Positions 56,596 through 58,985 of a stretch of 64,000 bases of DNA are shown here, one piece after another. The notes under the pieces were generated by a model. The model saw nothing but the letters and a program-made list of their open reading frames with translations. It was not told where the DNA came from and made no database searches. The stretch is from an uncultured Cycloclasticus sp. (GTDB lineage: Bacteria; Pseudomonadota; Gammaproteobacteria; Methylococcales; Cycloclasticaceae): the NCBI GenBank assembly GCA_913057515.1, contig CAJXOJ010000008.1:1-64000 (forward strand). The letters run 5' to 3'. Position 1 is the first letter of the stretch. The number at the start of each line of letters is the position of its first letter. A program made the translations under genes and the position numbers.

Positions 56596-57777
56596 TTAAA
56601 GGCGGCATGTTGATTCTGGCTCATCATACCCCAAGGTATCTAAATAGGTGCGGGGGTGTAAAAACTCTTTATGCGGTAACACCGAAACAATGGCCCTAGG
56701 CATAGCCAATAAAATAGGCTGACGCAACTGTTGATTCCATTGTCTAAACGTCAGCTTGACGCCTTTAAAGCCTGCCAAGCTAAATTGATCACTTAACATG
56801 AACTTTTTAACATCATCTAATTGCACACTATTGCTACGCGTCACCGCCTCTCCAATTGCTCTCACGGCTAACCATGCAGAGTAATCAATATCATTCATCC
56901 AACGGCCGGCTTGTTTATAAAACCGGTTCTGCATTTGCACCGCCCCCCATCGCTCATGTGTTCTATGCCAAGCAGTAGGCACTAAACCCTGAGTTCCAAT
57001 AACGGGTCTGGGCCGCCATGTATTCATCGTTAAATATTCGCCAAACAAACCTTTTACATCAGCAACTAGCATTACATCGTAATCAGCCCCTTGGGTAAAA
57101 ACCGGAATCTCTGCTTGTGCCGTCCGCCTTGCATCATGATCAAAGCTCCACGTTTTTTCTTCAACCAGTTTAATCCCAAAACGTGCTGCCGAACGCTTAA
57201 TAGCTTTTGTAAAGCGAAGGTCTTCATGATCAGTGCCCTTCACTAAAAACCATTTTGTCCAACGTTTTTTAAGCATCAGCTGGGCGAGCGCATCGGCCTT
57301 CATTTCATCACTGGGAATAATATGGAATGTATTGGTACTACAACTTTCATTTCTCAACTCACCATCTGTTGAAGAAACATTAAACAGCAAAACATTATTC
57401 GCTTTAGCAATAACCGAGAGCTTTTTCAGTGTAACGGTTTGCACATCCGCGACAACATATTGATAACCGTCGGCTACTAACTGATTAAATTCAGATACAA
57501 CATCTTCACCTACTAAGACATCAACACGTTTGAGTTCATAATGATGTCCTGTAAACATTCCCGTGGTATTGTTATCTTTGGTTGCTAAAATAGCGCCTTG
57601 CACACCTGCGTCCGATAGAACAGGATCAAGATTCGATAAGGCAGCTGGGTGCGACATTTTTTCGGTTAAAAAAGCCATATCGACAGCAAGATTATCCGCA
57701 TAAACTGAGCTAGAAAAACAGGCTATTGAGCAAGCAATATAACCAATGAAGCGCAGAATTAATAAAATATGTCTCAT
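56596..57777 (-). CDS. PQQ-associated periplasmic substrate-binding protein
   Basis: A 393-residue periplasmic binding protein of the branched-chain amino-acid receptor fold. Signal peptide at residues 1-28 (FIGYIACSIACFSSSVYA). KMSHPAALSNLDPVLSDAGVQGA near 40-62, WTKWFLVKGTDHEDLRFTKAIKRSA near 185 and the C-terminal SVLPHKEFLHPRTYLDTLGYDEPES match the PQQ-dependent alcohol dehydrogenase system family. Unlike classical importers it is paired with an ABC-2 permease, so it may sense rather than import. First gene of its operon; a TAAGG site precedes the ATG. Confidence 0.88.
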   Translation of the reverse strand: MRHILLILRFIGYIACSIACFSSSVYADNLAVDMAFLTEKMSHPAALSNLDPVLSDAGVQGAILATKDNNTTGMFTGHHYELKRVDVLVGEDVVSEFNQLVADGYQYVVADVQTVTLKKLSVIAKANNVLLFNVSSTDGELRNESCSTNTFHIIPSDEMKADALAQLMLKKRWTKWFLVKGTDHEDLRFTKAIKRSAARFGIKLVEEKTWSFDHDARRTAQAEIPVFTQGADYDVMLVADVKGLFGEYLTMNTWRPRPVIGTQGLVPTAWHRTHERWGAVQMQNRFYKQAGRWMNDIDYSAWLAVRAIGEAVTRSNSVQLDDVKKFMLSDQFSLAGFKGVKLTFRQWNQQLRQPILLAMPRAIVSVLPHKEFLHPRTYLDTLGYDEPESTCRL

Positions 57778-57919: not shown

Positions 57920-57948
57920 AAAAAAAAGGCGACCCATAAAGAGTCGCC
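57920..57948 (-). terminator. Intrinsic terminator of the sRNA candidate
   Basis: On the minus strand GGCGAC and GTCGCC (57928-57933 with 57943-57948) form a 6-bp stem, extendable by a T-G pair, around a short loop, followed by eight T residues (57920-57927). No annotated minus-strand gene ends nearby, so the terminator needs a transcript of its own. Confidence 0.85.
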
Positions 57949-58008
57949 AAAGAGGAGGAGAACATTATCACGTTGAACAACCTGAGAACAGAGTTGCAGT
58001 AACAATGT
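57920..58008 (-). ncRNA. Candidate small RNA with anti-Shine-Dalgarno stretch
   Basis: About 89 nt on the minus strand between a strong promoter and a terminator, in a region with no gene. The 5' half folds as a long hairpin: the outer stem pairs 57999-58007 with 57961-57969 (9 bp, two G-U), and an inner stem (CAAC/CTG with CAG/GTTG) closes a TTCT loop. An unpaired CTCCTCCTCTTT follows (about 57949-57960), complementary to purine-rich ribosome sites. The 3' end is a GC stem plus eight U. This hairpin - C/U-rich single strand - terminator plan is that of trans-acting, Hfq-type sRNAs. I do not recognise it as a named family. Alternatives are a leader of an unseen gene or an untranscribed relic. 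Confidence 0.6.
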
Positions 58009-58014
58009 GAGTTC

Positions 58015-58043
58015 ATATTATATTGCTCCGCAACACTTGTCAA
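58015..58043 (-). promoter_or_regulatory. Near-consensus sigma-70 promoter of the sRNA candidate
   Basis: On the minus strand a perfect -35 TTGACA (58038-58043) is separated by exactly 17 bp from TAATAT (58015-58020), one base from the consensus TATAAT. The predicted start is an A at about 58006-58008. It points away from the plus-strand hydrolase gene and lies about 230 bp from the PQQ-ABC operon start. Confidence 0.8.
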
Positions 58044-58133: not shown

Positions 58134-58985
58134 ATGAATATTAAATACTCAACGGCAAACCCTGCTTTAGACGTTATTGAACGTCACCCAAAAACGGCCA
58201 CACGCCGCCCTATCTTATTTATTCATGGGGCAAACATGTCTGCTTGGTGCTGGGATGAATACTTTATGCCTTTTTTTTCCGACCTAGGCCACCCTACCTA
58301 CGCTGTTAACTTACGGGGACATGGAAAAAGTGAAGGAAGCGCGATGCTTGCTTCAAACAGCATTGCTGATTATGTTAATGATCTACAACGTGTTATTGAT
58401 GAAATTGGAGAGCCGCCGATTCTTATTGGCCACTCACTGGGCGGGCTTATCATCCAAAAGTTTATAGAGAAAAAAACGGTTCCCGCCTGCATTCTCATGG
58501 CAACCGTTCCTGTTGATGGCCTAATACCGTCTATTGTAGACTTAGCGCTAAACCCTACTTTTTATATGCAAATGAACCTTAGCGAACTGGTAGGCACTTG
58601 GTTTTCGCCGGTCGATGTGACACGTAAGTCTGTATTTTCAGGGCATGTCAGTGATGACGTTGTTATTCGTTACTGCGCAGAAATGCAACAAGGATCTCCT
58701 AAGGCACTATTAGATACATTATGGCTCGGTTTACCAACCTATAAAAACCCATTTGATATCCCCATGTTAGCGCTCAGCGCTGATGAGGACACCTTTTTTA
58801 GGCCTGCACATATTAGAAAAACGGCAATAGCGTATAAAGCTGATTATATCAATATGAAAAAAACGGGGCATACCATGATGATAGATGTGCATTGGCGCGA
58901 AAGCGCAGAGGCCATTAATCATTGGTTAGAAGAAAAAAACCTATCTAGCCCCTTAACAAACCTTAACAATAATAAGGCTAACTAA
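58134..58985 (+). CDS. Alpha/beta-hydrolase family protein
   Basis: A 283-residue cytosolic hydrolase. HG box LFIHGANMSAWCWDEYF (oxyanion hole), YAVNLRGHGKSEGS, the nucleophile elbow LIGHSLGGLIIQKFIE with Ser near 103, a likely acidic residue in LALSADEDTFF, and the His in MKKTGHTMMIDVHW give a full Ser-Asp/Glu-His triad. Substrate (ester, lactone or other) cannot be told. AAGGA lies 5 bp before the ATG. The 3' end of the gene forms half of a 17-bp terminator stem, so the last residues (NNNKAN) are fixed by that hairpin. Confidence 0.88.
   Translation: MNIKYSTANPALDVIERHPKTATRRPILFIHGANMSAWCWDEYFMPFFSDLGHPTYAVNLRGHGKSEGSAMLASNSIADYVNDLQRVIDEIGEPPILIGHSLGGLIIQKFIEKKTVPACILMATVPVDGLIPSIVDLALNPTFYMQMNLSELVGTWFSPVDVTRKSVFSGHVSDDVVIRYCAEMQQGSPKALLDTLWLGLPTYKNPFDIPMLALSADEDTFFRPAHIRKTAIAYKADYINMKKTGHTMMIDVHWRESAEAINHWLEEKNLSSPLTNLNNNKAN

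Follow-up and report, generated by a model that had tools for sequence, protein, structure and literature searches.

Between the flanking start codons at positions 57777 and 58134 of the window, the 64-kb stretch of DNA analysed here, lies a gap of 356 bp, as in the original prediction. The minus strand of this gap carries a small RNA (sRNA) gene (Table 1). Every part that the original prediction had described is found between 58043 and 57920 of that strand: a TTGACA-17-TAATAT promoter, a 5′ hairpin, an unpaired CUCCUCCUC stretch and a terminator followed by eight U residues. The first base of the RNA, 58008, is an estimate from the −10 hexamer.

Table 1. Coordinates of the sRNA gene, its parts and the neighbouring genes in the window.
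Feature	Position	Strand	Remarks
−35 hexamer TTGACA	58038..58043	−	5/6 positions 0.94-1.0 conserved (16 genus genomes)
Putative PhaR-type operator GTGTTGCGGAGCAATAT (palindrome TGC-N3-GCA)	58020..58036	−	In promoter spacer, touches −10
−10 hexamer TAATAT	58015..58020	−	Separated from −35 by 17-nt spacer
sRNA, about 89 nt	57920..58008	−	5′ end estimated from −10, 3′ end from U tract
5′ hairpin, 10-pair outer stem ACAUUGUUAC/GUGAUAAUGU plus inner stem	57962..58008	−	Fold and conservation
Unpaired seed UCUCCUCCUCUUU, complement of strong Shine-Dalgarno	57949..57961	−	Between both hairpins in the fold
Intrinsic terminator GGCGACUC-UUUAU-GGGUCGCC plus U8	57920..57948	−	
Downstream neighbour, PQQ-system ABC substrate-binding protein	56596..57777	−	TIGR03863, 471.5 bits, cut-off 413.6
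Divergent neighbour, alpha/beta hydrolase	58134..58985	+	PF12697

The 89-nt RNA has a predicted folding energy of −30 kcal/mol (z = −6.7), and 0 of 200 shuffled sequences were equally stable. The fold consists of two independent hairpins without an antiterminator. The terminator stem (57948-57928) has eight pairs, six of them G-C, and is followed by U8. Promoter-like sites in the surrounding 2-kb region number 5 against 5.1 expected by chance, and terminators 2 against 1.9; the sRNA promoter is the best of the five. Promoter and terminator matches alone are therefore insufficient, and it is conservation that places the element above chance level.

A 136 bp query was matched in 35 of 61 genomes. 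Within the genus, copies were recovered from 16 of 18 genomes; completeness is 87% and 58% for the two genomes without one. The copies retain both stems and the core together with the promoter and the U tract. Loss of the promoter or terminator in close relatives, which would have told against the prediction, is not seen in these 16 genomes. A covariation check, which had also been proposed, showed that 98% of stem cells pair, with three doubly changed pairs, against at most 61% in slid controls. Majority identity in the genus is 0.83 within 58043-57921 compared with 0.54 in the flanks; the edges are sharp at the −35 hexamer and the U tract, and the stretch beyond the terminator displays no conservation in the genus alignment. 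The UCUCCUCCU part of the seed is invariant in 23 copies from four families. At the level of sequence, the locus is thus defined by a conserved promoter, two conserved stems, a near-invariant core UCUCCUCC predicted to be single-stranded, a terminator and an operator palindrome in the promoter.

A model of the core (R1) has matches in 154 of 301 genomes of the order; those in family f8 are weak and include tandem siblings. In a class-wide sample, one genome outside the genus was matched, that of the gammaproteobacterium G501 (E 1e-5). By these searches, the sRNA core is widely distributed in this order and rare in the rest of the class. Assemblies of Cycloclasticus, Methylohalobius, Methylothermaceae and Methylococcaceae are the named records that contain it; Methylolobus and Methylotetracoccus were matched via a partner element on the opposite strand. 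Siblings were also encountered. Several f6 loci (L076, L077, L078, L084, L091-L093) have a second sibling sRNA, CUCCUCCUCUUUGACAGCAGGG...CCCUGCUGUUUUUUU, with the palindrome TGCGACAAATTGTCGCA ahead of it, which is probably the site of another regulator. At f8 loci including L271, L272, L277 and L278, tandem diverged copies (AUAUCCUUCUCUUUAGCGGC...U8) are about 200 nt apart with a CGCGACAATNTGNCACATT-like sequence upstream, and these are likely to be siblings controlled by a regulator.

The promoter spacer contains a palindrome of the form ATGTTGC-N3-GCAATAT, whose conservation in the genus equals that of the −35 and −10 hexamers. When the palindrome was searched for across the genus, matches were found ∼40-80 bp upstream of the starts of genes encoding phasins of 107-116 amino acids, a PhaB-like reductase and others. 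The phasins were confirmed as PF09361, and nearly every phasin promoter of the genus has one or two such palindromes. In one phasin group (L198, L200-L203, L206, L207, L210), two PhaR-type palindromes are 26-27 bp apart and the second adjoins the −10 hexamer. An operator matrix was built from 32 phasin and phaB sites of the genus. In a scan of the window with this matrix, the sRNA promoter ranks first of about 64,000 positions, at 17.5 bits with the next at 9.6 (computed per-position probability 4.7e-7, or 0.03 sites expected in the whole window). The new observation, drawn from these matches, is that the promoter palindrome of an sRNA gene matches the putative operators of the phasin and phaB genes of the genus.

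PhaR is a sensor of PHB granules. It is encoded (PF07879) in all 18 genus genomes, both f7 genomes, three of 13 in f4 and none of 10 in f6. Among the sRNA promoters, those of the genus and of f7 contain the operator, and the scored f4 and f6 copies lack it; no operator was found in the two PhaR-bearing f4 genomes with scored sRNA promoters (G047, G060). In Sinorhizobium meliloti, PhaR directly binds a site in the mmgR promoter and represses it, and loss of PhaR raises MmgR levels (PMC12542648). The Cycloclasticus sRNA is probably repressed by PhaR, as is MmgR in Sinorhizobium.

The MmgR/alphaR8 family (RF00519; MmgR of S. meliloti, SisA-D of Caulobacter crescentus) is the closest parallel in other respects as well. 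Its RNAs likewise have a 5′ hairpin and a single-stranded, C/U-rich core whose CCUCC directly precedes a GC terminator; a long U tract and sibling copies in some genomes are further shared features. In addition, mmgR is repressed by PhaR through a promoter site (PMC12542648), of which the operator-like site ranked first in the window is a candidate counterpart. There are, however, clear differences. The core is UCUCCUCCUCUUU and not the single-stranded 10-mer UUUCCUCCCU; the window RNA scores 21.7 bits (E 0.025) against a gathering threshold of 41, and the G501 copies 19.9 and 18.2; and the operator is situated in the −35/−10 spacer with an off-consensus centre. In addition, the alphaR8 RNAs are alphaproteobacterial and commonly lie beside an N-formylglutamate amidohydrolase gene, whereas the present RNA is gammaproteobacterial and is found next to an ABC operon and a hydrolase gene. 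Because the alphaR8 sequence tests failed (21.7 of 41 bits, a different core), the sRNA is filed as a new family and not as a member of MmgR/alphaR8.

Two other families show a more limited likeness. The Betaproteobacteria toxic small RNA (RF02278) shares the anti-Shine-Dalgarno (anti-SD) CUCCUCC stretch and a GC terminator, but only G501 copies match it, at 21.9 bits against a gathering threshold of 50, and the window RNA has no match up to E 5. Aggregatibacter JA04 (RF02732) shares the outline of 5′ hairpin, unpaired middle and terminator, but the score is 24.5 bits against 81 and the JA04 consensus is without the anti-SD core. A scan with Rfam 15 gave no match at gathering threshold in the window or in the loci of ten relatives, the sub-threshold matches being weak, and a literature search found no description of this sRNA, nor of such sRNAs in methanotrophs or Cycloclasticus. 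The original prediction of a so far undescribed sRNA whose anti-SD stretch is exposed is supported, with no Rfam family at gathering threshold and an Hfq gene in the genome. On the evidence of its sequence, this is a genuine, previously unlisted sRNA gene of an oil-degrading marine Cycloclasticus-type bacterium.

Downstream of the sRNA gene is a PQQ-alcohol ABC operon (NCBIfam TIGR03863/03866/03864/03861), and both the genus and f7 retain the order of sRNA followed by the PQQ_ABC_bind operon. Copies in f4 and f6 have this core and terminator in other surroundings, for example beside tRNA genes or facing the partner gene. A metabolic link to the operon had been suggested at first; it lacks support, as the f4 and f6 contexts are unrelated and the promoter palindrome matches the PHB (phasin/phaB) regulon. 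The divergent hydrolase gene begins about 100 bp from the PhaR-type operator and might share PhaR-type control. Its best NCBIfam model is that of an intracellular PHA depolymerase (NF050089), at 50.5 bits, far below the cut-off of 300. In one genus genome (G008, L011), the hydrolase gene between the sRNA and a glutamate-dehydrogenase-like gene is missing, and the sRNA still adjoins the ABC operon.

Close to the sRNA gene, families f4, f6 and f7 have a second element, which on the other strand reads as a gene of its own. It displays a TTGGAC-like −35 and a TAGACT or TACACT −10 hexamer, followed by GUCGYCAAAGAGGAGGAG, A-rich AAN repeats and, in most cases, a GCCCGC terminator. The repeats possibly represent a site for the distal face of Hfq. 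A model of this partner (R2) has matches in 119 of 301 genomes of the order, and in several of these the partner is unlinked from the sRNA. Cognate duplexes of sRNA and partner in f4, f6 and f7 mostly comprise 14-18 pairs and have predicted energies of −32 to −45 kcal/mol. In f8 the duplexes are weaker, and cognate pairs are no better than swapped ones; coevolution of sRNA and partner is not claimed, since it is absent within f8 and the overall excess stems from family strata. None of the 18 Cycloclasticus genomes has an R2 match, and the genus appears from this search to be without the partner RNA. One match in the window (57926-57980, plus strand) was considered as a Cycloclasticus partner and rejected, as it is the antisense of the sRNA.

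G501, a distant genome that does not belong to the order, carries two sRNA copies in tandem (L374 4400-4880) and a third at another place. The two tandem promoters contain TGC-RNY-GCA palindromes of the PhaR type. The genome also has partner-like sequence with matched changes, in which GGCCGAC/GUCGGCC replaces GGCGAC/GUCGYC, and for each of the three sRNAs this sequence is the best pairing partner (−44 to −48 kcal/mol, compared with −24 to −44 with the others). This matched change, a single case, is the main argument for direct pairing of sRNA and partner. Caulobacter CrfA, a sponge of the MmgR/alphaR8 family, is likewise an RNA in its own right that can pair with the conserved core shared by a family of C-rich sRNAs (PMC12559287). 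It differs in that the candidate sponge of the relatives often adjoins the sRNA gene on the opposite strand and is not found in Cycloclasticus. As an independent gene complementary to the sRNA core, in f4, f6 and f7 and more weakly in f8, the partner RNA is a probable sponge for the sRNA in these relatives.

Features of an Hfq-dependent trans-acting sRNA are present, namely a promoter of its own, an intrinsic terminator with a long U tail and an Hfq gene in the genome (PF17209, 102.6 bits). Exact sites with the full complement AAGAGGAGG number only eight in the genome. One of them is simply the sRNA read in antisense, and no long gene has such a site in a convincing ribosome-binding position. 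The sRNA may be the broad translational repressor originally proposed, though the exact sites are few. For S. meliloti, an action of MmgR on phasin expression has been proposed (PMC12542648). Phasin mRNAs were considered as targets here and rejected, the duplex energies of 18 phasin start regions falling within the background of 45 window genes. In ten genus genomes (L364-L373), a gene for a 4Fe-4S ferredoxin-type subunit, ∼4 kb from a phasin gene, has a (C/G)AGGAGGGTG ribosome site before its start. As the source genome has ACAGGAGGG at that position, this possible target is a lead only.

The data are probably best explained by a PhaR-controlled, Hfq-type anti-SD trans-acting sRNA that works like MmgR/alphaR8 and is countered by a sponge in relatives. 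Several other explanations merit consideration. The ABC operon might have the sRNA as its 5′ leader, the terminator being 143 nt ahead of the substrate-binding gene and read through under some condition (attenuation). Such a leader would fit the gene order, which both the genus and f7 retain, and a search for a consensus promoter between terminator and operon was negative; nevertheless, the changed contexts in f4 and f6, the lack of an antiterminator in the two-hairpin fold and the unconserved stretch after the terminator make attenuation very unlikely. A different doubt concerns the regulator. The centre of the operator is R-N-R in sRNA promoters of the genus, as opposed to R-N-Y in 32 of 32 phasin/phaB training sites, and the PhaR sites of S. 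meliloti (PMC12542648) and Ralstonia eutropha (YTKNTGCRNYGCANMAR; PMC12849132) agree with R-N-Y. The affinity of PhaR may accordingly be low, or another regulator may bind. That the palindrome belongs to a non-PhaR regulator, with no direct link of the sRNA to PHB, is nonetheless considered unlikely, given that the f7 sRNA promoters and the G501 copies match R-N-Y exactly and that the 17-bp site otherwise agrees with the PhaR-type matrix.

The function of the CUCCUCC core and the nature of the partner can also be viewed differently. Instead of pairing with specific mRNAs, the core could titrate a protein or 30S subunits, or the RNA could be a toxic anti-SD RNA, a proposal in keeping with the paucity of mRNAs having the full complement at the ribosome site and with the weak resemblance of a G501 copy to the betaproteobacterial toxic sRNA model. 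This is regarded as very unlikely, since the conserved core continues beyond the anti-SD part to include UUUGGCGAC, a stretch to which the partner RNA corresponds as well. The partner, for its own part, might be an RNA of independent function, its GAGGAGG serving as a binding site for ribosomes or for CsrA. GGA motifs do occur in it and cognate preference is lacking in f8, but no start codon is found at the usual distance downstream in f4 and f6, complementarity extends beyond the SD-like part and G501 has the matched change; an RNA other than a sponge is rather unlikely on balance.

Under the favoured reading of a PhaR-controlled anti-SD sRNA, PhaR would occupy the operator when PHB is absent and block RNA polymerase. 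With formation of PHB granules, PhaR would be sequestered and the sRNA made. Hfq would bind the U8 tail, and CUCCUCCUC would block the translation of some mRNAs by pairing with their strong ribosome sites of the GAGGAGG type, whereby part of metabolism would be lowered during carbon storage. In the relatives, the partner RNA, with its complementary GUCGYCAAAGAGGAGGAG and A/U-rich repeats, would sequester the sRNA and tune its action.

It may tentatively be suggested, with less than even confidence, that a module of PhaR, anti-SD sRNA and sponge couples granules of stored carbon to translation in Alphaproteobacteria as well as Gammaproteobacteria. Such a module could represent one ancient system whose RNA has changed past recognition, or a striking convergence, with Cycloclasticus keeping the sRNA without the sponge. 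Should the favoured reading of PhaR control hold, the granule-sensing repressor PhaR would, in parallel with the rhizobia, command an sRNA in bacteria that degrade hydrocarbons and in their relatives, and storage of bioplastic (PHB) would be tied to post-transcriptional control in bacteria for which no such sRNA was found described. The sRNA-partner pair conserved in the methanotroph relatives would constitute a directly testable sponge system in organisms that are used for methane conversion.
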